Shown: positions 1 through 21,901, numbered from the stretch's first letter. The stretch is 64,000 bases of DNA from Planctomyces sp. SH-PL62 (GCF_001610895.1 NZ_CP011275.1:1-64000); one strand, 5' to 3'. A program made the numbers and translations. The notes: a model not told the origin generated them from the letters alone.

Positions 1-351
1 AAAGTGGACGTCGAGACCGTCGAGCTTCAAGGCGTCTTCCAGCCCTAGGATGCAGGATACGGCCTGCTCGCAGAGATTCCGACGCTCGGCGAACCACCTG
101 CTCTTGCTCGCTTTGGCCGAGAGGTCCGCCTCGATGTCGGCCTTGAGGCGGTCGGGATCTCTGTTCGCATCGGACAGGTAGCCGGCCGCGGCTCGCTGCG
201 CCGGGTCGTAGCGAGCCCCGATGAACTCGGCTGGGTATTTCGCCTGCTTCAGGATCGAGCGACGGCGGACGAAACTCGCCACCATGAACTCGCCCAGCAG
301 GTTGAGCGAAACCTGGGGAGAATGCCGCACCTTTTGACGCTGGGAGCGCAT
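1..351 (-). CDS. Hypothetical protein, C-terminus cut by window edge
   Basis: The minus strand reads openly from an ATG at 351 to base 1, giving the first 117 residues of a longer protein. The start is supported by an AAAGGAG ribosome binding site about five bases upstream. The visible part is basic and helical (an FVRRRSILKQAKYP stretch followed by charged helices) with no catalytic motif I recognise. It follows the Cys-cluster gene on the same strand after a gap of about 60 bases, so it is probably the last visible member of the 0-3.4 kb cassette. Function unknown. Confidence 0.65.
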   Translation of the reverse strand, partial: MRSQRQKVRHSPQVSLNLLGEFMVASFVRRRSILKQAKYPAEFIGARYDPAQRAAAGYLSDANRDPDRLKADIEADLSAKASKSRWFAERRNLCEQAVSCILGLEDALKLDGLDVHF

Positions 352-409
352 GCCGACTCCTTTCATCCGAGACAAGGACGGGACGTCATCGCGGAGTGGG
401 ACCGCGGCT

Positions 410-1570
410 TCAAACGGCCTGGGCCGCAGGAACGGCGATTCGGCTTGAAGACGGCGGAGCATCCTGGAACAACCTGGGCCGACTCCGCTCGAACGAGGCC
501 CGTTGCTCGATCCAGGGGGCGTACCGACGTACGTTGTGATCGAGGATGTTGTCGATCCCCTGGCCGATGAGGCTCCAAGTCTCGCGCCACGGGCTCCTGC
601 CCGCCGCAGGGTCGAACAACCGTCGCCGGGTCGTCTTCGCGAACGGCACGGAGTCGATCAGGGTGAAGGTCTCGAATCGCGAGGCGACATACTCGACGAA
701 CTGGGCGCCGCCGATGACGATCGGATGCAGCTTGCGCCCGAGATCCTGTTGCAGATCGGCGAGCGATTCGATCGAGAGGCGCCCCTGCGTCCGGTTCTTG
801 TTCCCGGTCTGGAATTCCTTCGCGACGTAGAGCACCGTCTCGTTGTCGGACAGGTAGCTCCTCCAGAAGTCCCAATCCCCCCGGGCCACTGCGCTCAGAT
901 GAGGCGCGACGTTCAGGCCGGATTCGACCATGCTCTCGATGCTGAGGAGCTGCCGCCGTCGGTTGTAGAGGTGCTCCGACCTGGGCACGTTCAGCACATG
1001 CGAGAAATTGGGAGCGACGATCAGCGAGACGCCGAGGGCGGCCAACTGACCGGCGGCGTCGTCCCTGTCGCCGTACTGCCAGTAGCGCTCAAGGAGGGGG
1101 TCACGAGCCGTGCCGCGCAGGATCACCCGGGCGTCCTCCGCGACCCCGAACGCCGCGCGGAGTTCCTTGGGATCGTCCGTCAGCGCCCGATAGCGCTTGC
1201 CCTTCACCCGAATGACGCGATAGGTGCTCAGCGCGATCGCCGGATAGTCGAGCGCGCCGTAACGATCCTTCTTGTGGTCGACGACCGGGACGTACTGCGG
1301 CAGCTCGGCCGATCGCTGGGCGAGCGGCTTTAGGTCGTCGAACCTCAGACCACCCACTTCTTCCAAGCGACGCATGAAATCGGGGTTGTTGTTGGGGCAG
1401 ATTCGCTTGCAGTCGGTCTTACCGCCGCAGCAATTGAGGTTGAAGCAATTCATCAGCGCCCGACTGGGCTGGATTCCGCCGCACGCCTCCAGGAGGAAGC
1501 AGATGCGGCATGCCGCCGAGACGACGCCGTGCGGACGCAGTTCATCCCTCAGCTTGGCTGGATCGCGCAT
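410..1570 (-). CDS. Cys-cluster protein with a DUF4417/TGT-like barrel
   Basis: A 386-residue protein. The N-terminus has eight cysteines in 38 residues (C21, C24, C30, C42, C47, C48, C54, C58), which suggests an Fe-S or zinc cluster. The middle and C-terminal parts look like an alternating beta/alpha barrel, with segments such as LIVAPNFSHV, GLNVAPHLSAVARGDWDF and LHPIVIGGAQFVEY. This pattern resembles DUF4417-type and tRNA-guanine-transglycosylase-like barrels, but the match is from general appearance only. Its ATG overlaps the stop of the upstream gene (TAATG), so translation is probably coupled. It is the fourth gene of a cassette with a GHKL ATPase and a STAS-like protein. Possible roles are nucleic acid base modification or redox sensing; neither is shown by the sequence. 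Confidence 0.7.
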   Translation of the reverse strand: MRDPAKLRDELRPHGVVSAACRICFLLEACGGIQPSRALMNCFNLNCCGGKTDCKRICPNNNPDFMRRLEEVGGLRFDDLKPLAQRSAELPQYVPVVDHKKDRYGALDYPAIALSTYRVIRVKGKRYRALTDDPKELRAAFGVAEDARVILRGTARDPLLERYWQYGDRDDAAGQLAALGVSLIVAPNFSHVLNVPRSEHLYNRRRQLLSIESMVESGLNVAPHLSAVARGDWDFWRSYLSDNETVLYVAKEFQTGNKNRTQGRLSIESLADLQQDLGRKLHPIVIGGAQFVEYVASRFETFTLIDSVPFAKTTRRRLFDPAAGRSPWRETWSLIGQGIDNILDHNVRRYAPWIEQRASFERSRPRLFQDAPPSSSRIAVPAAQAV

Positions 1571-1935
1571 TAGCCCTCCACGATGACGCCCTTGCCGCAG
1601 CCCGAGAGCGGCGAATACTCCTTGATGCGAATGGAGACGACGCCAGGATCGCCCGGCTCGCGCAGGCCCTTCGAGAGGTGCTTTTCGCCTTCACCCTCGA
1701 TCCGGCCGACGACGCGAGGCCCCTGGGCAACATGGATCCGCTCGCCGTCGCGCGAGACGACGGCGAAATAGGAATCGCCGTCCTTCGGATCCACGCCGTC
1801 CTCGAAGCGGATCGTGTACTCGATGTCCGTGATCTCGGGACGCTCGAACAGCGAGCGGCGCTTGACCTCCTCGCGGGCGATGTTGCGGCGGCGCTCGAAG
1901 TTCTTCACCTGCTCTTCGAGGAAGTTCTCACCCAT
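1570..1935 (-). CDS. Small conserved-looking hypothetical protein
   Basis: A 121-residue protein with a charged N-terminal helix (LEEQVKNFERRRNIAREEVKRR) followed by a beta-rich part (ITDIEYTIRFEDG, DSYFAVVSRDGERIHV). I recognise no family. It overlaps the upstream STAS-like gene by eight bases (ATGGGTGA) and its stop overlaps the start of the Cys-cluster gene. This spacing makes it a genuine gene in a translationally coupled operon. It may be an adaptor between the regulatory pair (ATPase and STAS) and the barrel protein; that is inference from position only. Confidence 0.65.
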   Translation of the reverse strand: MGENFLEEQVKNFERRRNIAREEVKRRSLFERPEITDIEYTIRFEDGVDPKDGDSYFAVVSRDGERIHVAQGPRVVGRIEGEGEKHLSKGLREPGDPGVVSIRIKEYSPLSGCGKGVIVEG

Positions 1936-2491
1936 CGATCGAGATCTCCGGCACGATAGGACGATAAATCTGCTCGCGACCTTGCTTCCGCCGTTTCAGG
2001 ATGCGTTTCCTCTCGTAGAGATCTCTCAGACGGTTGTTCCAGGCCGTGGCCTTCGTCTCGGGATGTTCGCGTTCCAGGGCCGCCCCGGTCGCCTCTCCGA
2101 GCTTTATCACAGCGGCCAAGGTCTCCCGCTGCCCGGGGTCAAGATGCCCGACCAACGTCGCGCGGCTCGGCGACTTTGCGCCGGTTGCGACCAAGAACAC
2201 CGTGTGGGCGTGGCCCGAGACGTAACGCAGCTCTTCGAGATGTTCGGCGGTGAGCCCCACGAGCACGAAGAACAGCTCGATCTCAGGCGTCCCACCCCAC
2301 CGCACGAGTTGGAGCAGCATCGCGCTGATCCAGGACCCGGTGAGTACGTCCACGCCCGAGAAGTCGAGGAGCACCGTCTCGCCGAGGCTAACGCCGCTCA
2401 GGGCCTGGCAGACCCGGCCGAAATGCCGGGTCCCCCGTGGCTGCCCCTGAAACCGTGTCTCGTCCAACAACTTCACGAGTTCGATCCGCAT
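1928..2491 (-). CDS. STAS-like (DUF4325-type) protein
   Basis: 187 residues from ATG 2491, which has a GAGG site seven bases upstream; an ATG at 2515 would add eight residues. The N-terminal 80 residues read as a STAS-like fold with a strand-turn-helix (ETVLLDFSGVDVLTGSWISA) like anti-sigma-factor antagonists. Proteins of the DUF4325 STAS-like type are commonly encoded next to GHKL ATPases, as here. The C-terminal 60 residues are basic and helical (RLRDLYERKRILKRRKQGRE). Expected role: switching partner of the neighbouring ATPase, as in partner-switching regulation. No phospho-acceptor serine can be assigned with confidence. Confidence 0.7.
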   Translation of the reverse strand: MRIELVKLLDETRFQGQPRGTRHFGRVCQALSGVSLGETVLLDFSGVDVLTGSWISAMLLQLVRWGGTPEIELFFVLVGLTAEHLEELRYVSGHAHTVFLVATGAKSPSRATLVGHLDPGQRETLAAVIKLGEATGAALEREHPETKATAWNNRLRDLYERKRILKRRKQGREQIYRPIVPEISIDG

Positions 2492-2578
2492 TTCAATCCT
2501 CACGTTTCTTAGCATGTCATACTAAGAATATAGCCGGGATCTGCTCGCGGCAAGTGAAGGCCGATGGATTTTTCCGGT

Positions 2579-3421
2579 TTATCCCGTCCCCCGCTGCCGG
2601 ATACGGCAGCAGACGGTCACCTGAAATCCTGGCAGGGCTGGAGGAAACCAAGCCGTCCCTCGGTCGGCATCGAGATCGACGCCGTTCATCTGGATGCCCC
2701 CCGCCCCGCTGCGGAAGCGCAGGACCCCGTCACAGGCGAGGAGCGCCTTGAAGACCTCGCGGAATCCGAACCCGCGCTCGCCGGGGCTGATGCTGCTCTC
2801 CCCGTCGTGCAACGCGCGGCGGATGGCGTCGTGATGCTCGTTGATATCGCGATAGTTCGGATGCCGTTTGAGGCTCCGCAGGACGCCGATCCCGACATCG
2901 ACGACGCAGAAGAGCGACCGACCGGATTCCACCTGGAAGCCGACGAGAACGGGGATCGGGGAGGCGGCATGGGTCAGGGCGTTGGCCGCCATCTCATGGA
3001 GGGCGACCGAAAGTTGGCTCGCGACCTTCGCCGAAAACCCTCCTCGCCTCGATGAAGCATCGTAGGTCGTCTCGAATCGCTTCCAGTTCGCCTCCTCCAA
3101 TTGCTCCTCGTCTCTCAGGACGAAGAATCCATAGGGGCGAGGATCGAGCCGATCCCACGTGCGGTTGTCCGCGCCGCTCGTCCTGACGCCGAGCGCCGAG
3201 TTGACCTCCCCCAATGCTTGCCCGAGGTCGGACGAACAGACCGTAAGAGGTAGATCGGGGAGGGCCGCTTCAGGAAAGGCCCAACGGAGGCACCCGTACT
3301 CCAGCGCGGCCGGCAAGGTCGCCCGGCGCATCTCGCGAATAAACGCATCGACCGGCCGCCCATGATTCAGGGCGAGCTGGATGTGCTCTACATCGCCTAC
3401 AGTAAGCAAGCCGTCCGGCAT
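2579..3421 (-). CDS. GHKL (HATPase_c) ATP-binding protein
   Basis: 280 residues from ATG 3421; an upstream TTG at 3451 is open in frame but lacks a ribosome binding site. The C-terminal half has Bergerat-fold motifs: N box LHEMAANALTHA, G1-like VDVGIGV and a glycine-rich GERGFGF lid. The N-terminal half has no recognised sensor domain and no histidine-kinase dimerisation helix, so this is closer to anti-sigma or stand-alone GHKL ATPases than to a sensor kinase. It is the first gene of the cassette and lies 87 bases before the STAS-like gene. It probably acts with that protein. Confidence 0.75.
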   Translation of the reverse strand: MPDGLLTVGDVEHIQLALNHGRPVDAFIREMRRATLPAALEYGCLRWAFPEAALPDLPLTVCSSDLGQALGEVNSALGVRTSGADNRTWDRLDPRPYGFFVLRDEEQLEEANWKRFETTYDASSRRGGFSAKVASQLSVALHEMAANALTHAASPIPVLVGFQVESGRSLFCVVDVGIGVLRSLKRHPNYRDINEHHDAIRRALHDGESSISPGERGFGFREVFKALLACDGVLRFRSGAGGIQMNGVDLDADRGTAWFPPALPGFQVTVCCRIRQRGTG

Positions 3422-4191
3422 GTCGAAGCTCGGATTCTGCTTGGGACGCAAAAATTCATCGCGGCAACCACAACCATACAGGCCGCCGCGCTTTCTGTGT
3501 CACGCGAACAGTTCGTCCGAGTCCGCCTCCTCGATTTACAGCCCTCCTGGGTAATTCCCCGGGCCCACATCACTTCGGGGCCCCGACCCTGGGGAGCTGA
3601 TTCCGGAGTCCATCGTGGAGTTCGTCGACGCTGGGGCATCGACGAACTCCTGAACCGCGATCCGGGGTTTCGCGTCCTCCCGACCGCGGGCGATTCGATC
3701 GATGTCGGGGGGCGGTTCCGATTCAACTTGCAAGGCCCCTCGGAAGGATCCCATCGAGGACGCCTACGAGGTCCTGATACGATTCCCGATGAGCTTCCCG
3801 AATCGGGATTCCGGTCGCCTTCGAGCAGTGCGGTCGCATCACACGCAGCCCGACAATTCTCTTTGCTTGGGGGCCGAACCGAGCTTCGGCTCAAGCTCGG
3901 TGCCGGCTCGACGCTCGACCGCTTCGTAGAGGAGACCCTCTATAACCGAGCTCCCGCCGCGGCGGCTCCTGCAGGAGAAGCTCCACGAGTCGGCGCTCCG
4001 CGCGAAGGCCCGGCTCGAGGTGCGCGAGGTCGAGCGGGGCTCATGCGGGGGCACGACTGGCGGGCCCGGTCGGCTCGAAGGGGGGCTTTCGGCTAGGGGG
4101 TACATCGATCGGCAGGCCAACCGCCGGAGGCGCCTGCCAGGCCTTTGGGGAGATCTCGGATGCAGGTCGGCGTGGCCAGGCAACCGGGGGC
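3422..4191. other. Region without a confident gene
   Basis: No open frame here has convincing start, ribosome binding site and codon pattern. A stretch near 3945-4040 reads as a helical fragment on the plus strand (PRRLLQEKLHESALRAKARL) and may be gene debris. The bases just upstream of 3421 should hold the promoter of the ATPase/STAS cassette. Two inverted repeats occur here, at 3617-3650 and 3878-3901. Confidence 0.4.
3617..3650. repeat. 12-bp perfect inverted repeat
   Basis: GGAGTTCGTCGA at 3617-3628 and its exact complement at 3639-3650 enclose a 10-base loop. No T-tract follows on either strand, so it is not a classical terminator. It lies about 200 bases upstream of the ATPase/STAS cassette. 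A regulator-binding site or a recombination scar are both possible. Confidence 0.45.
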
Positions 4192-4540
4192 TTACACTGC
4201 CAGCGTCGCGGAGCGGGATTCCGAGATGGGCCGGCCCTCGTCCACACTCGTGCGGGTGATACGCTCGAGGCGTACGAGCCTTCCGTAGTATGCCTGGATC
4301 GAATCGAGCCCTTCACGGGTCACGACTACCATGAAACCTTCGCCCTCGAGGTCATTGTCGGGCGGGGCCGTCTCGATCGGCCCGTCGACCCACCATCGCG
4401 TCTCCGCCATCAGCGTGCCGCCCGCGTCGACCCACCGGAAAAGGCCGGAGCCGTCGTTCTTCCACCTCCACTACAAACTCGGGCAGGGCCCTGGAGATCT
4501 CGCGGAGGTCGTCCGCGTTCGGGGCAGACTCCGCCAGGGT
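4192..4540 (-). pseudogene. Truncated, frameshifted gene fragment
   Basis: From 4410 down to 4192 one frame reads a plausible C-terminal part (TRWWVDGPIETAPPDND ... GFMVVVTREGLDSIQAYY). The preceding part is in a different frame (ESAPNADDLREISRALPEFV), with the switch near 4455-4465. The 5' end stops close to the IS630-type transposase, so the element probably truncated the gene. Family unknown. Confidence 0.45.
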
Positions 4541-4559
4541 TCATTCTTTGTACATCGGT

Positions 4560-5337
4560 TTACCCCGGCATGGCATACAGCCCTGAATGCCTGAACCAGC
4601 CTGCGATATCCTTGGCCGTGACCTGATCGAGGGAGTCGGCCAGCGCCTGGTGCAACGCCGGGATGGTCCGCGCGGCGGCGCGACGCAGCCGCCCCTTGAT
4701 CTTCGACCACATCTCCTCGATCGGGTTGTAGTCGGGGCTGTACGGCGGCAGCCGGACCTCCTTCTCGACGGCCGCCTCGGCGGCCGGGGAGTCGTGGACG
4801 CGGAGGTCGTCCCTCACCACCACGTCGCCGGGACGGAGGTGGGGCACCAGCACGTCCCGGACGTACGTCCGGGACGCCGGTTCGTCCATCGCGCCGGGGA
4901 AGGCCGAAGAGCCGCGCAGCCCGTCGAGGCCCAGCGCCGAGACGACCGTCGTCGTCGACCAAGACTTCGGGGCCGAGCCCTCGACCCGACGCCCCCTCGG
5001 GGCCCAGCCGCGGGTCGGCGTCATCGACGCGTCGACGCCGGCCTCGTCCAGGAAAACCAGCCGTTTCGCGTCGAGCCGCCTCGCCTTGCGGCGGAACTTC
5101 CGGCGGGCCTCCTTCACTTCGGGACGGTCTCGTTCGGTCGCGTGCAGCGACTTCTTCTTGCGCGTCCAGCCGAACCGCCGCAGCGTCCGCCAGATGGTCG
5201 TGATCGTGCAGTCGAAGCCGCCCGACTCCTTGATCTGTTTCAGGGTGGCGTCGGGGCGCCCCCGCACCAGGTCGAACAGGCGGATGCGGCTGATGCTGCA
5301 TCGCCTCCACCCCTCGGGCGTCGACCCGGAGTTCCAC
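4560..5337 (-). pseudogene. IS630-family transposase, N-terminally short
   Basis: The catalytic half of an IS630 (DDE_3) transposase is complete: LVFLDEAGVDASM gives the first Asp, VVVRDDLRVHD the second, and YSPDYNPIEEMWSKIK the acidic final motif with the usual YSP.NPIE signature. The second helix-turn-helix part (TLKQIKESGG.DCTITTIWRTLRRFGW) is present. The first helix-turn-helix of full IS630 proteins (usually about 340 residues) is missing: the frame closes at a TAG just upstream of 5337, and a GTG at 5267 is the best remaining start. I could not find a convincing pair of terminal inverted repeats. It is probably a truncated, inactive copy that damaged the gene at 4192-4540. Confidence 0.75.
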
Positions 5338-5883: not shown

Positions 5884-7566
5884 TCATCGGATGCCGAGGC
5901 TTTTCGCCGTTTCCGGGTCGATGGCGCGGATCGCCGCTGCGACTTCGGACTTGTCCAGCGGGAGGTCGCCCTTGAAGACTTCGATGAGGATGGGCAAGGT
6001 CGACCGGGCCGGCGGCCCGATATTCCTCAACACGGCTGCCGCGAGGCCGTCCGAGGGGTCGCGCCGCAGGACTTCGGCGATCGCAGGGGCGGCTGCGGCG
6101 GCCCCGGGGCCCATCGGACTCAGGGCGCCGAGGGCCGAACTCCTGGCGTATTCGGATCCGCCTTGCAACTCCTTGACGAGGGCCTCGATCCCCTTCTCGC
6201 CCCCCGTGATCCGCCAAATCGCCTCGTTCGCGTGGGCGCGGAGCATGTCCTCGCCGGAATGGGCGGAGATCCGCTGCAGCGGTTCGACCGCCTCCGCCGC
6301 CGCGGGGCCGATCCGGCCCAGCACCCGCACGACCTTGTAGAGAGCTGAATCGTTCTCCGCGGAGAGTTGCTGGCTTAACGTCGGGACGGCTTCCGCCGCC
6401 GACGGCCCAATCTCGGCGAGGGCGTCGAGGGCGGCGTAACGTAGGGCCAGGTCGCGGGGGTCGGTCATGCCGGCGGAACTGAGCAAGACCGGGATGATGC
6501 GGCGGTCCTGCGCGATCCGCCAGCAGGCGAGGGCGGCCACGACGCGGTCGGCCGCACGGGCCGAAGTGGACATCCGGGAGAGCTTCGGGACGGCGACCCC
6601 GGCCTTTGGGCCGATCCTGCCCAATGCCGCGGCGGCCGTCCAGCGGATGCCGTCAACGGGGTCGTCGAGGCCTTCGATCAAGGCGGGCACGGCGCCCGGG
6701 CCGATGGAGGCGAGGGAGACGGCCCAGGGCAGCATCGCCGGGGAGGCCGCAGTCGACCTCCGCAGCATCGCCGGTACGGCGGCTACGGACGGCGGGCCGA
6801 TCCTGCCGAGTGCGTTGAGCGCCGATTCGTGGTCGGCGGGGTTTTCACCCTCGAGCAACCTGATCAAGGCAGAGACGGCCGACTCCGCCGCAGGGCCCAT
6901 GAGGCCGAGATGAAACGCCGCCTGACCCCTTACGAACTCCGTGCGGTCGGCCAGCGCCTCGATCAGGATCGACGCGGCGTCGGGACGACCCGAGATCGAC
7001 CAGAGGACGGAGGCGGCCTGGATGCGGGTCGAGACGTCGTGGTCATGGGTCAATTCCTCGATCCGGCCGAGGGCCCCGCGCGCCTCGGGCCCCATGAGGC
7101 CGAGGGCGTGGATGCTCTCGCGGCGGACGCTTCCGGGCCGCTCGCGGGTCGCCTCGACGAGCAGCGGGACGACCGAGGGGCCCAACTGCGCGATGGCACC
7201 TGCGATCAGGCCCGGCTGGAAGCCGTCCGCGCGTCGCATTGCGTCGAACATCGCCTGGGCCGACCCGGCCGCCGCCGGCCCGACCTTGCCCAGCGACACG
7301 GCGGCTTCGCAACGGATCCAACTCTCTCGATCGGAGAGGGCCCGGGTCAACTCGGGGACCGACGGTGCCGCTCCGGGGCCGATCGCGCCCAGGGCCTTGA
7401 TCGCCGCTAGACGGCGGGCCGGGTCAGGGTCGTCGAGCTGCAAGGTCCAAGATTGAAGGTTACGCCCCGCGTAGGAAGGATGGCCTGTGGACTTCACCAT
7501 TCCGACACCGGGATCATCAACCTGCCGAGGCAGCTGGGCGAGGAGGGACCACAGCAGGATTAACAT
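5884..7566 (-). CDS. Secreted HEAT-repeat protein
   Basis: 560 residues from ATG 7566, chosen because GGAG lies eight bases upstream; an ATG at 7578 is also in frame. The first 12 residues (MLILLWSLLAQL) look like a short signal peptide. The rest is a run of about a dozen HEAT-type helical pairs of 35-40 residues, with recurring signatures such as LGAIGPGAAPSVPELTRAL, LGKVGPAAAGS and LGRIGPPSVAAVPAM. HEAT solenoids are protein-binding scaffolds and are abundant in planctomycetes. No enzymatic domain is visible. It lies upstream of nothing co-directional on its own side and is probably monocistronic. Confidence 0.8.
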   Translation of the reverse strand: MLILLWSLLAQLPRQVDDPGVGMVKSTGHPSYAGRNLQSWTLQLDDPDPARRLAAIKALGAIGPGAAPSVPELTRALSDRESWIRCEAAVSLGKVGPAAAGSAQAMFDAMRRADGFQPGLIAGAIAQLGPSVVPLLVEATRERPGSVRRESIHALGLMGPEARGALGRIEELTHDHDVSTRIQAASVLWSISGRPDAASILIEALADRTEFVRGQAAFHLGLMGPAAESAVSALIRLLEGENPADHESALNALGRIGPPSVAAVPAMLRRSTAASPAMLPWAVSLASIGPGAVPALIEGLDDPVDGIRWTAAAALGRIGPKAGVAVPKLSRMSTSARAADRVVAALACWRIAQDRRIIPVLLSSAGMTDPRDLALRYAALDALAEIGPSAAEAVPTLSQQLSAENDSALYKVVRVLGRIGPAAAEAVEPLQRISAHSGEDMLRAHANEAIWRITGGEKGIEALVKELQGGSEYARSSALGALSPMGPGAAAAAPAIAEVLRRDPSDGLAAAVLRNIGPPARSTLPILIEVFKGDLPLDKSEVAAAIRAIDPETAKSLGIR

Positions 7567-7979
7567 AATAATCTCCATTTATGATGCCCCATGATTTCAC
7601 GAGGGACTTGGGGATGGGGAAGCGGGGCACTGCTAGGCCGCCCAAGGCGGCTATTGCTCGACTATCGTCGTCATGGCAGGATCCAAATATCCACGGTTGC
7701 TCTTCTGAATCGTTCGCCGGACGACCGTGGTCAGCCTGCCGTAGGCGGAAAAGCGGTCCGAACCCCCACGTTCCCGTTACTTGGACGATCACCGGTCTGG
7801 CCGCAAGTCAAGGTGCGTTGCATAGCCGATGAGGGCGAGCAGCGGACCCGGATGCCGGAGCGGACGCTGTCTGCCGCTCCGGCATCGTGGCTCCACGACG
7901 AACGTTCCGCCTCCGTCAGATTAAGTTAGTACATTGTCCACTCGCAAGACATCACTCGGCTTGATCGGCGAACCCAGGG
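7567..7979. other. Intergenic region
   Basis: I see no supported gene between the HEAT-repeat gene and the 3' end of the giant fibronectin gene. The part next to 7566 should contain the HEAT gene promoter, and the part next to 7980 the end of the giant transcript. No strong terminator hairpin is evident. Confidence 0.4.
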
Positions 7980-10900
7980 TCAATCATATCCGCCAGAGTA
8001 GACCTTCTGCAAATCGAGCTTCGTGGGGTTAGCCTTCCTCCAGGTCTTCCACCTGTCTACGAGATGCAAGTTGAAAAAGGCGTAGCGATTGTAGCCGTCG
8101 CCGAAGCTCGAGTTGGGGAACAATCCCTGAAATGTTGTATTGTCGCCGGGCAAAGGCGAACGAATTGTAAAGTCCCAACCAGGCACGGGAGGCATGATGA
8201 ATCCGAATATCGGATCGCGGCCGCTCTGAGTTACGTTCTTCCAGAAGGCCAGACCATCGATATTGATTATGGGTTGAAGGACCTCGACCTGCTCAGCGAG
8301 CGCAAGACGGCCCTGGCCTCTCCAAAAAACGTCCGAATTCTTATTCGCCAATCCGTCCGAGATGTCCCGCCAGGCGTCTCGAGCTGTGACAGTGACCCCG
8401 ACGTACTGCTCACCTAGGCCACTATTGTACAAACGGTCTGTTCCGACGACGCCCTCGGCTAGAAATGCGAGGATCTGAGGATATATATCCATGAATATTG
8501 TTATGTTTCCTTGGCCCAGCGCGTTCAGCGCCCTTGTTGCGTCGGGATAGTTCATCAGCCCGGCGATCGGTTCGACCGGTTGCAGCGTTCGCGAAAGCGA
8601 AATGGCCTTGCTCGCACTCCGCGACGCGAACGTGGCCACCCCGGCCCATTCGAGTGCAGTTACGCTCTGCCCCAGCTTCGGGTCGACAAAGTTCAGATCA
8701 GGCCTGCCGAGGCTTCTGTTGAACGCATCGACGTAGTACTGAGTGATCAGGGCGCTGCGTTCGAGCGGATCCCCGGTGACGTATCCATCGGGTTTGAGGA
8801 CCTTCCATGCCTGCAGTTGCCACGGCTGGAATTGCTTGCCCGCCGGCAGGACTGCGATGGTGACCGACTGCCTCAGATAGGTCATCGCCCCCGGACCGGA
8901 TGAGGTCAGCAGGACTCGGACCAACAAGGTCGACGTCATATAGTTCACCACCCGAGCGGGCGAAACGCCGGCTACACCGGGTAGATCCTGTACCTGGAAG
9001 GCGAACTCGTACCTGTTCGCTCCCCCCGCAACCTTCGTCCCTCGGATGATGCGGCCGTCGGACAGCTCCACCGACGCGACTACGACGGCGGTCGGGCCGT
9101 AATCGGGAATATCTGCCGTCAAGGTGACGATGTCGCCCGTTTCATAGATGCTGTCAGCGTGATCCAGCGTGAACGCTACCTGACCCGGCACGGTCAGCTT
9201 CCGCGTGAACTTGTCCGTGGGAGCGGGGCCGTCTCCCAGCTCCAGGGTCGCCTCCGCCGCGGGTGCCTGGACCAGGTTTACGCTGAGCATCGCCAAGACG
9301 GCGGCACGCTGGCTCGCCGTCAGATCGTCTAGAGGGTCGCCCCCCGCCGCACTGTCGATTGTATAGATGGATTGGAACATCTTGGATACGAATCCGCTCG
9401 CGGCGACCAGCAGTTCGTCCACATAGGTCGCCGCGGGATTGTCGCTCGAGCGTACGCGTAGCTGCTTGCCCAAGGATTCGGGCAGACCGGTGATCAGGCT
9501 CTTGAAAAGGGAGTGGCTCGGGCTCCAGCTCGGGGAGCCGGAGTAGCCGCTCTGGATTGCGTCGAGAAGCTCCTGGGCCCAGATGGGCACCAGTTTGCCG
9601 ATGGGCCGACCGTCATAGCCGACGAAGTTCCAGTCGGCGATCGTCATCTGGATGTCGTCCGTGGCGACGACCTTGCCCGCCTCGTCCTGATAGATCACGG
9701 CGAAGCCGAACTTGGGGACGCTTCGAACGCCCTGGAGCCAGAGGTCGAGCGGGCCGTTCTGGATCCCCGAAAGGTAACCGGTCGGATTGGAGAGGTCGAG
9801 GGTGAGGACCCCGTCGCCGGTCCCGTCCTTGTCGTAGAAGAGAGAGCCGTCGGTCTTGAACAGGCGGACGGCGGTCGGATCGGATAGCACGATCTTCAAC
9901 TTGCCGCCGGTCATGCCCGCCGGCAACTTGTCGATGGTGATCTTGGCCAGATCCAGGTCGCCTTCCCCGGAACTCGCGCCGGGGATGTCGGCGGTATCCG
10001 CACCCAAGGCCGGCGTCCCGTCGGAGAGAGTGTACTGATTGTCGACAAGGATCACGTACTTGGAGGGGTCTCCGTCCTTCTCGACTTGGTCGGAGACCTC
10101 GACGCCCTGGTTGTCGCCCGTGCGATGGGCGGTGAGGTCGACGAATCCGGACACCGCATGGAATGTGACCGTCCCCCACGAAGGGAACGCGTCGTCCGCG
10201 GCGGAGTTGGTCCCCGTGTCCAAGACCACGTTGAGATAGTTCATCGCGCCGGGATCGCCGGCGAACGTGATGGTCCGAGTGCCGGACGACTTCGCCAACA
10301 CGCCGTCGCCCCAGTTGGAGCCGCCCCAGACGAACGGCAAGGGCAACGGGTCCGAGATGTTCATATTGGGGAATGGTTTGCTGGTGACGCTGAAGGAGAA
10401 GGAATCCCAATATCCCCTGGTCGCGTTGTAGGAATCCCACGTCGAGAAGTCGTAGTCGAATGTGAACGTATACGTGTCGGACGGCATCAAGAGGATCGAC
10501 ACGCCGTGGTACGAGCCCGGCTGGCTCTCGTGCTCGGTCCTGCCGACCTTGCCGAGCGTGATGGTATCGCCCGACAATACGGCCTCGCCGTACGTCGAGC
10601 CGTACTCGATCACCAGGGCGATCGTGCCGGCCGCGTCGCCCGCCGTCGCCCGCGCGACCGCGGTTCCGCTACCGGTGTTGGGGGCCGTATACAAGCCCGA
10701 CGCGCTCACGGACCCGATGCCGCTGGCGAGCGACCAAGAGATCGAAGGTTGGCTCTTCAGGTCGTTACCGAACTGGTCCTTGGCGACCGCCTTGAGCTGC
10801 GACCGCTCCCCGGGGCGGATGACGCCGCGTTCGGACGAGAGGACCAGTTTGGTCGCCTTCTGCTCGACGGACACGGTCGCCTTGCTCTGGGCGACGGCCC

Positions 10901-13900
10901 CTTGATTGCTGACCGTCACGAGGAAGGTGTATTCGCCTGCGGACGAGAACGTGGCGGTGACGCTGCTCGCCGTGTGAGAATGATTGTCGCTGAACTTCGG
11001 CATGAAAGCCCCGGCCGGCATCGATTCGATCGACCAGGAATAGGTCAGGGCTGAGCCGGCACCCGCGACCTGGGCTCCCACGCTGAGCTGGGTGGATTCG
11101 CCCGCGACTTGCGCCCCCGAAGCGGAGGCCGGCGAGACGATGACTGGGGTCGCCGCATAGTCGTCGGGGGTGGAGGTGGGCGTTACGGTGATCGTGACCG
11201 TCGTCCAAGGGCCCGACGCAACTCCATCGCTGGCTTTGTAGACGAACGAATCCTGCCCGTAGAATCCTGTGGCGGGCACGTAAGTGAACGTCCCGTCATG
11301 GTTTAGGGTCAACGTACCGGCTCGCGACGCCACGACCAGCATCGCCGTCAGTTGGTCACCGTCGGCGTCGGAATCGTTGGAGAGGATCCCGCTCGATGCC
11401 GCGGAGATGACGAGCGAGTTCCCCTGCGTCGTGGAATACGCATCGTTCAGAGAAGTCGGGGCGTGGGGATTGGTGACGAGGATCGTCACCGTCGCCAAGT
11501 CGCTGTCCAGGGCGCCGTTACTGGCCCGGTAGGTGAAAGCGTCAGTCCCGGTGAAGCCGGGATTCGGCGTATAGGAGAAGGACCCGTCGGGGTTCAAGAC
11601 CACCGATCCGTGGCTGGCATTGCCGACGATGGCCGCCGTCAGGGGGATCCCGTAGGGATCGGTGTCGTTGGACAGGACGCCGTAGGCCTTGGTTATCGAG
11701 AGGTCGCGGTCATGGAGCGAAGTGTAGGATTCATTGTTGGCCGTCGGATGGATGATCGTCAGCGAGACGACGTCGCTGAATGGTGAATCGCCCGCGGCGT
11801 TGGCGGCGATCAGCCGGTAATTGTAGGGGATGCCCGACTGCAGGCCTGTGTCCGTGAAGCTCGTTGCGCCCGCTCCGGTATTGCCGACGTTAGCCCAGAC
11901 GCCGGAGTTCATCAGCCGTTCGATGCGGTAGCCCGTTTCATTGCTGACATCGTCCCACGAAACCGTGATCGACGAGCTGGAGGCCGCTACGGCCTTCACT
12001 CCGGACGGGGCTTTCGGGAACGCCGGGGCGGCCGACCAACCCGTAGCATAATTCGAATGACCGCTGATGGCGGAAAAGGCCCGGACCCGGAAGTAGTATG
12101 TCTTCGACCCTTCGAACGGACCGGTGGCGGTGATCGTCGCGAATCTGCCGGGTACCGAGCCGACGGGAAGCCATGTAGTCCCATCGTTCGACTGCTCGAC
12201 CTGGTATTCCGAGGCACGAGACGAGTTGTTCGTCCATGCGATGTCGGCACGACCCCAGGAAATAATTGACGCCGTGAGGCCTGTCGGGGCCGACGGTTGG
12301 GTGATGGCGGTTACAGGCGAGCTCGGCGCCGATTCTCCAATTGCGTTGGTGGCCACGACCCTGTAGGTGTACGACGTCCCCTCGATCAGGCCGGCGTCGG
12401 TCGTGGTGGTCGTGCCCGCTCCGACTGTCGTGACTTCCAGCCAGGTTGCGCCGGACCGCCGCTCGATGCGATATTGGGTCGCGCCGACGACCCCCGCCCA
12501 TGACAATCTGATGCTCGCATCCGACTGCGTTGTCGCCGCAAGGCCGGTCGGCTTGCTCGGGAAGGCGGGAGTCGCCGCCGTCGTCGTCGCCGCATTCGAG
12601 TAGGCGGCGAGCGTGTTCAGGTAGGCCCGGATGCGGTAGTGATAGGTGGTCGAGCCGTCGAACGGGCCCGCGTCCACGGCGCTCGTCGCGTTCGCACCGA
12701 TGCTGCCGCCGACGCTGGTCCAACCCGTGATGCCGTCGGGCGACCGCTCGACGACGTAGGAGGTCTCCTTCGAGGACCGGTCGGTCCACGAGAGGTCGAC
12801 GCGGCCGCCGGAGACAGCGGTCGCCGAGAAGCCGGAAGGCGCCAGCAGCGGGGAGACGGCGTTGGCCGCGGCGCCGGGCGCGGAGTCGCCGGCCGCGTTG
12901 TACGCGGTCACGCGGTAGTAGTAGCGCGTCCCCTCCGCAAGGCCCGAGTCCGTGAGGCTCGTGGAAGAGGTCGGCGCGCCGACCTGCGCCCAGCCGGAGG
13001 TCCCGGTGGCGCTCCGCTCGACCCGATAGCCGGCCGCCCCGATCGCGGCGGACCACGTCAGGGCGATCGAGCCCTCGGCCCCGGGGGTCGCCGTCGGCGC
13101 CGCCGGCTTGCTCGGGAAGGCGGGAGTCGCCGCCGTCGTCGTCGCCGCATTCGAGTAGGCGGCGAGCGTGTTCAGGTAGGCCCGGATGCGGTAGTGATAG
13201 GTGGTCGAGCCGTCGAACGGGCCCGCGTCCACGGCGCTCGTCGCGTTCGCACCGATGCTGCCGCCGACGCTGGTCCAACCCGTGATGCCGTCGGGCGACC
13301 GCTCGACGACGTAGGAGGTCTCCTTCGAGGACCGGTCGGTCCACGAGAGGTCGACGCGGCCGCCGGAGACAGCGGTCGCCGAGAAGCCGGAAGGCGCCAG
13401 CAGCGGGGAGACGGCGTTGGCCGCGGCGCCGGGCGCGGAGTCGCCGGCCGCGTTGTACGCGGTCACGCGGTAGTAGTAGCGCGTCCCCTCCGCAAGGCCC
13501 GAGTCCGTGAGGCTCGTGGAAGAGGTCGGCGCGCCGACCTGCGCCCAGCCGGAGGTCCCGGTGGCGCTCCGCTCGACCCGATAGCCGGCCGCCCCGATCG
13601 CGGCGGACCACGTCAGGGCGATCGAGCCCTCGGCCCCGGGGGTCGCCGTCGGCGCCGCCGGCTTGCTCGGGAAGGCGGGAGTCGCCGCCGTCGTCGTCGC
13701 CGCATTCGAGTAGGCGGCGAGCGTGTTCAGGTAGGCCCGGATGCGGTAGTGATAGGTGGTCGAGCCGTCGAACGGGCCCGCGTCCACGGCGCTCGTCGCG
13801 TTCGCACCGATGCTGCCGCCGACGCTGGTCCAACCCGTGATGCCGTCGGGCGACCGCTCGACGACGTAGGAGGTCTCCTTCGAGGACCGGTCGGTCCACG

Positions 13901-16900
13901 AGAGGTCGACGCGGCCGCCGGAGACAGCGGTCGCCGAGAAGCCGGAAGGCGCCAGCAGCGGGGAGACGGCGTTGGCCGCGGCGCCGGGCGCGGAGTCGCC
14001 GGCCGCGTTGTACGCGGTCACGCGGTAGTAGTAGCGCGTCCCCTCCGCAAGGCCCGAGTCCGTGAGGCTCGTGGAAGAGGTCGGCGCGCCGACCTGCGCC
14101 CAGCCGGAGGTCCCGGTGGCGCTCCGCTCGACCCGATAGCCGGCCGCCCCGATCGCGGCGGACCACGTCAGGGCGATCGAGCCCTCGGCCCCGGGGGTCG
14201 CCGTCGGCGCCGCCGGCTTGCTCGGGAAGCTTGCGGTGGCGACGGAAGCGACGTTCGAGTACGTCGAGAAGTCCGCGAGGGTGTTGTAGGCCCGGATGCG
14301 GTACTGATAGGTGAGCGACCCGTCGAAATCGGCCAGGTCGGAGTACGCGACCGAGTTGGCGGGGCGCGACGGGAGCACGGTCCAGGAGACGCCGTTGGTC
14401 GAGCGTTCGAGGTAATAGGCCGTCTCGACGGTCGACGCGTCGGTCCACGCCAGGTCGACGCGCCCCCCCGAGAGGGCCGCGGCCGTCAGGCCGGTCGGGG
14501 CCGCGATGGAGGTCGCTGCGTTCGCCGAGGCGCTGGGCGCCGAGTCGCCCCCGGCGTTGTACGCCGTGACGCGATAGTAATACCGCTTCGCCTCGGCGAG
14601 TCCGGCGTCGTCGAAGCTCGTCGACCCCGCCGGGGCCGTCCCGACCTGGGCCCACCCCGTCGAACCGTCCGGGCTCCGTTCCACCCGGTATCCCGAGGTG
14701 CCCGCCGCGTCCGCCCACGCGACCCGGAGGCTCGAGCTGGTGGGCGAGCCGACGGAGACGCCCGTCGGCGCGGCCGGGAACGCGGTCGTCGTCGACGCCG
14801 TGGCGTAAGCCGAGTAGTAGGAGACCGGGAAACCGACGTTGAATGTGAGGACCGAGCGGACGCGGAAATAGTAGGTCGTCCCCGGGGCGAACGACCCGGC
14901 GATCGAGGCGGTCGTCGCGTTCGCCGGCCTGGAGATCAAGTTCCAACCCGTCACGCCGTTGGTCGACCACTCGACCTGGTAGGCTGTCTCGATCGCGGAG
15001 CGGTCCGTCCAGGCCAGGTCGATCCGGGCCGCGGAGACGTAGGTCGCCGCTAGGTCCGCGGGGCCGGACAGCTCGGTCGTCGCGCCGGCCGTCGCGGCGT
15101 AGGCCGAGTCGCCCGCGCCGTTGGTCGCGCGGATGCGATACGAGTAGGAGGTCCGCTCGGTCAGCCCGGAGTCGACGAACGCGGTCGCGTCGGGGCCGAC
15201 GACCCCGATCTGCGTCCACGTCGAGCCGACGAGGCGCTCGATCTTGTAGCCGGTCTCCCCGGCCACGTCGTTCCAGGTGAGACGGACCTCGGTCGCCGAC
15301 GTCCCCGCGGCGGCGAATCCCGTCGGGGCGACCGGCTGGCCGGCCGTCGTGGCGACGACGACGGCCGGCGTCGAGGAGCCGGCCGCATTGGTCGCCGCGA
15401 CCCGGAACCAGTAGGTCGTCCCGGGCGTGAGGTTGGTCGCCTGGAACGAGCCCACGCCGGTCCAACTCGCCGTCGCGGTGCCGGCCGTCGTGAAAGCGAC
15501 CCCGTCGGTCGAATACTCGACACGGTACTGATCTTCGTTGTCCGTGGCGTCCGTCCAGGAGAGATTGACCTGGACGTTCGAGGCGACCGTCGCCGTCAGG
15601 TTCACGGGCGGCACCGGGAGGACCTGGGCCGGGGCGGCCGAGGCGACGTTCGAGTACGCCGAGTCGTCGCCGTTGTAGGCCCGCACCCGGAAGTAGTAGA
15701 GGACGCCCGGCGTCAGCCCGCCGACGGCGGCCGTCGTGACGTTGGCCGCGGGCGTGGCGATCACGGCGAAGTCGACACCGTCGGTCGAGCGTTCGACCTT
15801 GTAGCCCGATTCGTTGGTCGCGACGTCGGTCCAGGCCAGGTTGATCAGGGTCGGCGAACCGGGGGCGGCCGTCAGGTTGATCGGCGCGGCCGGGGCCGTG
15901 CTCGTGCGGCCGGCGACCGCGGGGGAGTAGGCAGACTGCCCCGAGGCGCTGTAGGCCCGGACGCGGAACCAGTAGACGGTCCCAGGGGCGAGCCCGGCCG
16001 CCGAGTACGCCGCCTGATTGGCCCCGGTCGTCCCGATCTCTGCGAAGTTGACGCCGTCCGCGGAACGCTCGACCTTGTAGCCGGTCTCGTTCGAGGCGGC
16101 GTCGTACCAGGTCAGGTTGATCGCCGCGCCCGAGGCCGCGGACGCCTGGAGGTTGGTGGGCGCGTTGAGCAGCGGAGTGGTCGCCCAGGCGATCCCCGAG
16201 TAGGCCGAGTCGCCCGCCGCGTTGGTCGCCCGCACGCGGTACGCGTAGGTGACGCCGGCCGCCGCGGACGTGTCCGAGAAGTTCCAGCCGCCGAAGGAGT
16301 TTGCGGGCCCGATCTCGGCGAAGGTCACGCCGTCGGTCGAGCGCTCGACCTTGTAGCCCGTCTCGTTGTCCGTCAGGTCGGCCCACTTCAGGTCGACCCG
16401 CGAGCTGCCCATCACCGTCGCCGACAGCACGGCCGGGGCGCCGGGCGGCGTCACGGTCGCCGCGGCGGACGCGACGTTGGAATAGTCCGAGGCCTCGACG
16501 CCGGTGTTCCTCGACAGGACGCGGAAATGGTAGGTGACGCCCGCGGTCAGTCCGGTCGCGACGTAACTCGTCTGGTTGCCGCCGACCCATCCCGCGTTCG
16601 CGAAGTCGACGCCGTTGGTCGACCGCTCGATGTAATAGCCCGTCTCGTTCGTCGCCGCGTCGGTCCAGGCGAGGTTGATGTAGCCGTCGCCCCTCGCCAC
16701 GGCCGTCAGGTTGGCCGGGGCCGCGGGCACGAACTTCGTGGCGGCGGAGGCCGTCGTGGAGTACGCCGAGTGGCCTTGGCCGTTGTAGCCGCGCACCCGG
16801 AAGTAATAGGTGACGCCGGGCGTGAGGCCGGTCGCCTGGTAGGAGCCCTGGTTGACGGGGCTCGTCCCGATCTCGGCGAAGGTCACGCCGTCGGTCGACC

Positions 16901-19900
16901 TCTCGACCTTGAAGCCCGTCTCGTTGTTCGATTGATCGAACCAGCTCAGGTCGATCCGCGTGCTGGAGGCGGGCGAGGCGTAGAGCGTCCCGGGGGTTGC
17001 GACGGGGGCCACGGCGGGCGTCGTCACGGAGGCGGTCGGCGAGAACGCCGTGTCGCCCGAGGGGGTGACGGCGCGGACTCGGTAGGTGTAAGTCGTCGCG
17101 GCCGTCGCGGCGTCGGTGTAGTACAGGCCCATGTAGGTGGGCCAGTTCACGATCTGGGTGAAGTTCACCCCGTCGGTCGACCGCTCGATCTTGTAGGCGG
17201 TCTCGTTCGGCAGGTTGTCCGACCAGGTCAGCTGGACCTGGGTCGGCGAAGTCGCGACGGCCTTCAGGTTGGTGGGATAGTTGAAGGACGGCATCGTGAC
17301 CAGCACGGCCGGGGCGAATGCGGACGTCCCCTGGGCGTTGTAGGCGCGGATGCGGAAGTACGTGCCGCTCGCGATCGGCTGCGACGGATAGCCGTAGACG
17401 ACCGAGGTCTGATCCGCCGAGGGGCTGCCGTAGGCCGTGAAGTTCACCCCGTCGAAGGACCGCTCGACGTCGAACCGCGTTTCATTGTCGGAGTTGTCGG
17501 TCCAGTCGAGCCGGACCTCGGAGTTCGACAGGGGGACGGCCGTGAGGCCCGTCGGCGCGGCCGGCAGGAGGGCCGTCGTCGAGGCCGTCGCGACGGCCGA
17601 GGAGGCCGAGTCGCCGGCCGCGTTGTAGGCCTTCACGCGGAACCAGTAGGCGGTCGTCGGGGAGAGGCCCGTGACGCTGAACGACGTCGACGTCGTGGTG
17701 CCGACGGCGGTGAAGGCAACGCCGTCGGTCGACCTCTCGACCCTGTAGCCCTGGACGTCGTCCGAGTCGTTCCGCCAGGTCAGGTTGACCTGGACCCCGG
17801 AGACGGCGACGGCCGCGAGGCCGAGCGGTGCGGCCGGGACGACGGGTGCGCCGGCCGCGGAGACGACGTTCGACGGCGCGGAGTCGTCGCCGTTCGCGGC
17901 TCGGACCCGGAAGTAGTAGGTCGCGCCGAACGTCACGGTCGCCACGTAGGTCGTGGAATTCGCCGACAGCGACTGCAGGAGCGTGAAGTTCACGCCGTCG
18001 GTCGAGCGCTCGATCTTGTAGCCCGTCTCGTTCGTCGCCAGATCGGTCCAGGCCAGGTTGATCTTCGTCGGCGCGGCCGGGGCGGCCGCGAGGGCGATCG
18101 GCGCGGCCGGGGCGGTGCTCGTCCGGGTCGGGACGACGGCGGAGTAGGCGGAATCGCCGGAGGCGTTGGCGGAGCGGATCCGGAACCAGTAGTTGGTCCC
18201 GGAGGAGAGCCCCGTCGCCGAATAGCTCGTCTGATTCGCCCCGACGGTCGTCAGCGGCGCGAAGGCGACGCCGTCGGTCGACCGCTCGATCTTGTAGCCG
18301 GTCTCGTTCGTCGCGGCGTCGTACCAGCTCAGGTCGATCCGTCCGCCCGAGACGACGGTCGCGGCGAGGTTGGTCGGCGGGTTGAGGAGCAGCGTCGCGG
18401 CCGAGGCGACGTTCGAGTTCGCCGAATCTCCGGAGGCGTTGGTCGCTCGTACGCGGAACCAGTAGGTCGTATTCGGGGCGAGCCCGGTCGCCGAGTAGCT
18501 GGACTGGTATGCGGGCGCCGTCGTGAGCAGGGTGAAGTTCACGCCGTCGGTCGACCGCTCGACCTTGTAGCCCGTCTCGTTGTCGGTGAACTCGCGCCAG
18601 GTCAGGTCGACCTGCGAGTTGGAGGCGGCCGTCGCCGTGAGGACGACCGGGGCGGCCGGCGGCTGGACCGTGGTCGTCGCGGAGGCGACGTTCGACCAGG
18701 CGGAATTCTCGGCGTTGTAGGCCCGGACGCGGAAGTGGTAGGCCGCCCCGGGCGCGAGGTTGGACGCGTAAGAAGTCGTCTGGTTCGCGCCGACGGTCGT
18801 CAGGAGGGCGAAGTTGACCCCGTCGGTCGAGCGCTCGATCCTGTAGCCGGTCTCGTTCGTCGCCGCGTCCGTCCAGGCCAGGTTGATCCGGTCCGGGCCC
18901 GCCGGGACGGCGGCCAGGTTCAGGGGCGCGGCCGGGACGGAGCCGACCCTCGCGACGGCCACGTTGGAGTTCGCCGACTCGCCCGAGCCGTTGTAGGCCC
19001 GGACGCGGAACTGGTACGTCGCGCCCAGGGTCAGCCCGGTCGCCGTCAGAGACGTCTGGCCCGCGGGCGGCGAGCCGACGGAGGTCCACGTCTCGCCGTC
19101 GGTCGAGCGTTCGACCCGGAAGCCCGTCTCGTTGCTCGAGTTGTCGGCCCAAACGAGGGAGACCTGGGTCCCGGAACTCCAGGATGCCGCGAGGCCGCTC
19201 GGGGCCGCGATCGCCGGAGTCGTCGCCGAGGCCGTCGCCGAGTAGTTCGACAGTGAGCCCGTGCCGTTGCTGTAGGCCCGGACTCGGAAGTAGTAGGGGG
19301 TCGAGGCCGAGAAGAGGCCGGAGACCACGGCCTTGGCGGCACCCGCCGGGGCCGTCACGACGGCCGTCCAGGCGACGCCGTCCGTGGACTGCTCGACGAC
19401 GTAGCCGCTCTCCGCGCCGGACGCGTCCGTCCAGGTGACGTCGATCCGATTCGTGGCGAAGAACTGGGCCGCGACGCCCGTCGGAGCGGCGAGAGGCGTG
19501 GTCGCGGACACGACGGCGCTCGACGTGGACGCGCCGGCTCCGTTGACCGCCGTGACGCGGTAGTAGTATCGGGCGTCGTCCGAGAGGGCCGCGTCCGCGA
19601 AGCTCGTCGCCCCGGCCGCCGCCGTGCCGGCCGCCGCCCAGGCCGTCCCGTCCGAGCTGCGCTCGATCGAGTACGAGTCGGCCCCGGGGGACGCCGCCCA
19701 CGTCACGAGGGTCGAGTTGGCGGAGGTGGCGGAAGCGGACAGGCCCGTCGGCTGGTCGGGCGGTTCCAGTGTGTCGAAGAAGATCCCGGCGATCATCGCG
19801 TTCGCGCCCTCCAGCTTGGTCACCCGGAACCGGACGTGCCCCGCGATCTCCCAAGTAGCGTAGACGCCGCCGTTGAAGTCCGAGAGCGTCCGACTGTCGA

Positions 19901-21284: not shown

Positions 21285-21901
21285 GGTGTAGCTCTCGTGG
21301 GGGCGACGCCCCCGTCGGCGCGCACGCCGGTCGGGGCGGTCTACCGAGTTTGCCGCCTGCCAAACAATGTCGAAGTCTGCGAGGTCGCCCCGGGGGGCGA
21401 ACAGGTGCGGGCCGGGCGAGGCCCTGCATCCAAAAACGGTTGAGGCCGCCCATCCAATCGCGGGCGACCTGATGGATTCATGTGATAAACCCAAGTAGAT
21501 CGTAAAACAAGCCGGCGCCGCGACGATGAAATCAATTTAATCGTCTCGAGCGGCCGGCTCGGCGGATCGATCGCCGCAGGATTCTCTCGCCCCCGGCCGG
21601 CGGCGCTTCATTCATCCGCGACCGAATCCAAAGCGCCACAACGATCCGCGCATCCCTCGCGACCCGCCCGCGTCGCACATAAATGGCGTTCCAGGACTTT
21701 CGTCCAGGAACGAGCGAAGCGCGACGGCACCGCAAAGAAGGACTTCGCAAGACGTATCGATCTGCCCCCTCTCTCGATGTTCGTCGCTTCCCGGGAACAC
21801 GACGATCGCCTACTCCGACCTCTGACGAGACCTTGAGCCGCGAAGGCGCTCTGGAGTATCGTCGGGCGACGATTGGACATGTGCGGCCGGATCGGCGTGG
21901 A
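21285..21901. other. Divergent intergenic region
   Basis: This 617-base stretch separates the minus-strand giant gene from the plus-strand AlbA/RecG-like gene and should hold both promoters. No open frame has a plausible ribosome binding site and composition. I could not assign promoter boxes with confidence. Confidence 0.4.

Follow-up and report, generated by a model that had tools for sequence, protein, structure and literature searches.

CapK, a protein of HTH-STAS-GHKL architecture, is always encoded immediately upstream of capS. It is activated by ssDNA and phosphorylates CapS at Ser54. CapS acts as a repressor at its own promoter and at an immune promoter next to it (Chambers et al., EMBO J 2026, PMC13373217). 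In a different setting, DpdA works together with the ParB-like DpdB in 7-deazaguanine DNA modification (PMC12839542). The locus described here lies at the start of a 64,000-nucleotide stretch of Planctomyces sp. SH-PL62 DNA (NZ_CP011275.1:1–64000), called the window here. The first-pass annotation had found in it a cassette that matched no nameable system. For its kinase/STAS pair this no longer holds, since the pair matches CapK/CapS (PMC13373217). With moderate confidence, we read the cassette as a self-controlled stress/defence operon on a CapK/CapS-type partner switch.

The features of the locus are collected in Table 1. The close packing of the minus-strand genes was confirmed for all open reading frames and for both overlaps, 8 bp between the STAS and small-protein genes and TAATG between the small-protein and Cys-protein genes. 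The kinase gene had been taken to extend to 3421. An ATG is present there, but the reading frame runs on to a TTG at 3451.

Table 1. Features of the cassette in window coordinates.
Feature	Position	Strand	Remarks
GHKL ATPase / CapK-like kinase gene	2579..3451	-	TTG start gives 290 aa, ATG at 3421 gives 280 aa
STAS (DUF4325-like) + winged-helix gene	1928..2515	-	start likelier at ATG 2491 (187 aa), judged from homology and the position of the SD
Small-protein gene, HIRAN-like fold	1570..1935	-	121 aa
Cys-protein gene, 8-Cys domain + TIM barrel, DUF4417 type	410..1570	-	386 aa
Eight-cysteine cluster in Cys protein	1397..1510	-	residues 21–58
TGT-like TIM barrel in Cys protein	464..1321	-	residues 84–369
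Ser61 codon of STAS protein (numbering from 2515)	2333..2335	-	predicted phospho-acceptor, aligned with CapS Ser54
Near-perfect palindrome TTCTTAGCATGTCATACTAAGAA before STAS gene	2506..2528	.	candidate operator
Gene 5 start	1..366	-	240 aa in total; continues at C3:86054-85701

Base 1 of the window is also base 1 of contig C3 (86,054 bp). Gene 5, open at the window edge, reads through the end of C3 into its start and closes at 240 aa; thus, C3 is circular. The earlier suggestion of a mobile replicon is supported. Gene 5 is probably co-transcribed with the cassette. The other planctomycete with the module has a TIR gene at this position, so gene 5 stands outside the conserved set. It falls in no known family and has only scattered relatives, one of which (29%, G000:C1:3411489-3412151, L097, also of no known family) is on the organism's own chromosome. 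Just upstream of the module, overlapping frames resembling an IS630-type transposase occupy window 4471–5337 (-), with gene debris nearby at 3450–4450. The window also holds a 564-aa ORF built of HEAT-like repeats (5884–7578, -) and a single 4504-aa ORF (7980–21494, -) with long fibronectin-III-like repeat arrays, in which one block is present three times in almost exact copies.

The first-pass annotation had seen a partner-switching pair of a Bergerat-fold ATPase and a STAS-like protein, and this assignment is borne out. The GHKL protein matches Pfam HATPase_c_2 (6.5e-5) and keeps the motifs ExxxNxxxH (E153/N157/H161), DxGxG and GxG; the residues of the N, G1 and G2 boxes are invariant in 54 relatives. 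Its profile aligns with the GHKL domain of CapK (1.4e-6), but the N-terminal part does not align, and it also matches RsbW weakly. The CapK and CapS genes used for comparison were taken from an Enterobacter plasmid. Calling the second protein STAS-like was correct but incomplete, as it also has a winged helix. Searches of the family libraries returned a weak DUF4325 match for the window protein, and DUF4325 was found in 33 of the 57 STAS members. The profile built from these 57 sequences matches the CapS structure (PDB 9z71) end to end across both domains. Ser61 (window numbering), invariant in 57/57, aligns with CapS Ser54 and is the predicted phospho-acceptor. The winged helix contains an invariant TAWNNRL helix, and the protein is likely a DNA-binding repressor. 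Judged by sequence, the pair is a relative of CapK/CapS.

We scanned 84,980 species genomes with the STAS protein alone as anchor. From the 137 relatives found, 80 loci were retained. HMM searches located all four genes next to each other in 72 of these 80 loci from other species. Four of the eight incomplete loci are at contig borders (L016, L060, L072, L094), and the other four look broken (L056, L074, L076, L084). This adjacency is far beyond chance, and the genes for the kinase, the STAS protein, the small protein and the Cys protein are a conserved module. The proposed neighbourhood check, whether the four genes stay together in defence islands, thus came out in favour, with known anti-phage genes usually adjacent. 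The module is found sporadically in Pseudomonadota, Acidobacteriota, Myxococcota, Nitrospinota, Armatimonadota and Actinomycetota, and in two planctomycetes, the second being another genome of the window's phylum. Plasmids of Aminobacter, Sinorhizobium and Rhizobium that carry a homologue of the Cys gene have the same four-gene set at that place. The window copy forms a very long branch on the tree. A scan of viral contigs with the single window protein gave no match, and a scan with alignment A1 gave one locus (L014); the barrel protein had no match among phage records. We found no description of the four-gene set in the literature searched, a search that left out bioRxiv and most subscription papers.

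The position of the kinase gene varies. It follows the barrel gene in 72/72 complete loci. In 44 of these the two genes share a strand; in the other 28 the kinase gene is antisense, overlapping by 117–153 bp in 26 cases. The antisense form accounts for only two changes on the tree and is therefore mostly one old event. Only in the window and in L006 does the kinase gene stand ahead of the STAS gene. Annotation missed the kinase gene of Sinorhizobium and R. etli, where it is encoded on the other strand and extends into the end of the barrel gene. In L008 (9084–9983, -) and L009 (9075–9914, -), the GHKL gene is antisense to the barrel gene and overlaps its 3' end, and the public annotation has a wrong-strand ORF in its place. 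An overlap of approximately 144–153 bp is retained in most of this clade.

The Cys protein has eight cysteines (residues 21, 24, 30, 42, 47, 48, 54 and 58) within a 38-residue span, all invariant in 62 relatives. That a barrel follows them, as first proposed, agrees with the AlphaFold2 model (62 sequences; pLDDT 82, pTM 0.83), which shows a TIM barrel; the 8-Cys segment is poorly modelled. Structure comparison of the barrel returned tRNA-guanine transglycosylases (TGTs) for all of the best 50 matches, with Z about 16 (for one, Z 16.5, 263 aligned residues, rmsd 4.0). The predicted barrel is a TGT fold, and this assignment is made at the level of the fold. No sequence homology to TGTs (PF01702) was detected in a profile comparison with 30 TGTs (hhalign probability 0.5%). 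The cysteines of the C-terminal TGT zinc site are absent, as the only invariant cysteines in the 62 relatives are at residues 21–58. The conserved polar residues D157, E161, N188, H224 and E252 suggest an enzyme; it may be a metal or Fe-S enzyme. A radical-SAM identity was considered and dropped, because the cysteines are in a separate N-terminal domain and not after strand 1.

The Cys protein has no Pfam match. Its plasmid homologues are annotated as DUF4417 by NCBI, and the Pfam model PF14386 stayed below cut-off, matching 1/62 members with E 0.038. Searching the 386-aa and 121-aa proteins against profiles, as had been advised, therefore yielded the DUF4417 label through homologue annotation but no TGT, HIRAN or above-cut-off DUF4417 match. 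The refuting case, a Cys gene mostly found without the ATPase/STAS pair, did not arise in the close family, where the full-length plasmid matches examined have the pair; two distant Streptomyces relatives lack it. On these Streptomyces plasmids (L012 4619–7053 and L013 4487–6921), a ParB-domain gene directly precedes the DUF4417 gene, an arrangement that recalls DpdB/DpdA. Phages also have distant DUF4417 proteins in fusion with ParB folds (PMC12704722).

The small protein was modelled from 51 sequences (AlphaFold2, pLDDT 74), with a HIRAN-like fold at residues 37–121. The closest structures are lp_0118 (Z 9.9), the HIRAN domain of HLTF (Z 8.1) and Rad5 (Z 7.5). HIRAN structures span Z 7.3–9.9, followed by HamB at 6.7 and unrelated folds at 4.5. 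The HIRAN sequence profile of Pfam matched 0/51 members at E ≤ 1. At the level of the predicted fold, the small protein is a HIRAN protein. HIRAN domains bind DNA 3' ends, as established for HLTF.

Upstream of the STAS gene, nearly every locus carries a palindrome, TTCACtATCtTCACgT-N-AcGTGAgGATaGTGAA, centred approximately 20 nt before the start. The window copy, TTCTTAGCATGTCATACTAAGAA, departs from the TCAC/GTGA consensus of the relatives. A symmetry score of ≥8 was reached upstream of STAS in 47% of the loci, compared with 5.6% of 445 flanking ORFs, 0/69 regions upstream of the kinase gene and 2% of shuffles; these frequencies come from related loci, so the P value overstates the significance. 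No second operator of the same shape was seen at the promoters of the GHKL gene, the neighbours or the downstream genes, a search confined to this spacing. In most relatives, the palindrome overlaps the STAS ribosome-binding site, and its right arm contains the SD in most loci. It could therefore work instead at the RNA level, folding into a hairpin that covers the SD; the region has a mean MFE of −13.5 versus −7.1 when shuffled.

In the partner-switch operon that we favour, the STAS–winged-helix protein would dimerize on the palindrome just before its own start and repress the STAS–HIRAN–barrel operon. The GHKL protein would phosphorylate the invariant STAS serine upon infection or DNA damage, possibly with the help of ssDNA or DNA ends to which the HIRAN protein is bound. 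The phosphorylated repressor would then leave the DNA. The HIRAN protein and the 8-Cys TGT-fold enzyme would be made, and the downstream genes of the same transcript would be released too. The HIRAN protein would serve as a DNA-end binder, and the TGT-fold protein is likely an effector on DNA or RNA. An effector inside the module is favoured because the core is constant, the neighbours change and no second operator was found at the neighbours. It may be a new effector class in a CapKS-like switch.

The genes flanking the module include clusters of GajA/GajB, AbiEi/AbiEii, HamA/HamB, KwaA/KwaB, SPARSA SIR2, reverse transcriptase and R-M genes, and representatives of the immune clusters were confirmed by PADLOC. 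Among the module proteins of the window, the PADLOC 2023 models gave only a weak match of the GHKL protein to DrmA (E 0.003). The four-gene core is constant, and the neighbours vary in identity, side and strand. On the tree, the label changes 12 times for Gabija, 5 times for AbiE, 4 times for Hachiman and 3 times each for Kiwa and SPARSA; the Gabija association has thus been gained repeatedly. The genome-wide background of GajA, taken with one narrow submodel too specific for a clean rate, was 11/49 genomes, with 3/11 at the module. A gene for an Mrr-type nuclease also recurs beside the module (L067 8324–9175, with relatives in L029, L079, L081, L085 and L089), and in several loci it lies between the module and Hachiman.

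These neighbours bear on the main rival, in which the module is a pure controller of adjacent immune operons, like CapKS, and the HIRAN and 8-Cys barrel proteins serve it as sensors or to activate the kinase. Gabija, AbiE, Hachiman, Kiwa and SPARSA genes often lie within approximately 100 bp and are co-directional, and GajA is next downstream in 9/68 loci. This constant company of defence genes and the repeated gain of Gabija fit such a role, for which CapKS is the precedent (PMC13373217). However, the operator shape was not found again at the GHKL or downstream-gene promoters, the neighbour is variously upstream, downstream or divergent, and no intact locus has lost the HIRAN or the barrel gene. 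We regard a pure controller as a serious possibility, though an improbable one. Somewhat more doubtful is a stand-alone anti-phage system, in which the phosphorylated STAS–winged-helix repressor would free a HIRAN DNA-end marker together with the 8-Cys TGT-fold enzyme, whose task would be base exchange or base removal in DNA that is foreign or damaged.

A toxin–antitoxin-like arrangement would have the STAS protein bind and inhibit the barrel protein until phosphorylation frees it. VapKSC shows that a STAS protein is able to hold an effector, and the tight coupling of the genes agrees with this, but the invariant winged-helix motif and the conserved upstream palindrome point to DNA binding and make the arrangement unlikely. 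A stress or DNA-repair operon without an immune role, present in islands because islands are mobile, would suit the sporadic distribution and the repair-like parts (HIRAN, a relative of an ssDNA-activated kinase), but is very improbable with so many immune genes as immediate neighbours.

The self-controlled operon that we favour suggests that the kinase/STAS switch in bacterial immunity has a second branch, and a widespread one. In this branch, the constant companions of the switch would be a protein whose fold binds DNA ends and another whose enzyme fold has no assigned function. The candidate operator, the predicted phospho-site and the defined neighbours of the module make the question of controller or weapon directly testable. 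DUF4417-type proteins gain a fold and a genomic context.

Among known systems, CapK/CapS shares with the module a GHKL kinase, a STAS–winged-helix repressor with an aligned phospho-serine position, a palindrome in the repressor's own promoter and adjacent immune operons. The half-sites differ (TCAC/GTGA in the module, TTAA for CapS), and unlike in CapK/CapS, the GHKL gene usually follows the barrel gene or runs antisense to it, no second operator of the same shape was seen at the neighbours, and there are two extra conserved genes (HIRAN and 8-Cys TGT-fold) unmentioned in PMC13373217. We do not assign the module to CapKS, given its different gene order and the unmatched N-terminus of its kinase. 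VapKSC likewise combines a kinase/STAS pair with a conserved effector gene in one operon (PMC13373217). There, a PIN nuclease is the effector, and in VapS a short C-terminal region stands in place of the winged helix. The conserved set of the module contains no VapC-like PIN nuclease gene and has, besides the winged helix, the HIRAN and TGT-fold proteins. The latter two proteins were not reported for CapKS or VapKSC in the literature searched. SpoIIAB/SpoIIAA and RsbW/RsbV share the logic of a GHKL serine kinase and a STAS antagonist, but the module is without a sigma factor and carries the DNA-binding domain on the STAS protein itself. With DpdA/DpdB, the module has in common a TGT-fold protein in an immune setting, and the distant DUF4417 relatives are beside or fused with ParB domains; the module differs from it in having no ParB partner, TGT sequence homology or C-terminal zinc cysteines.
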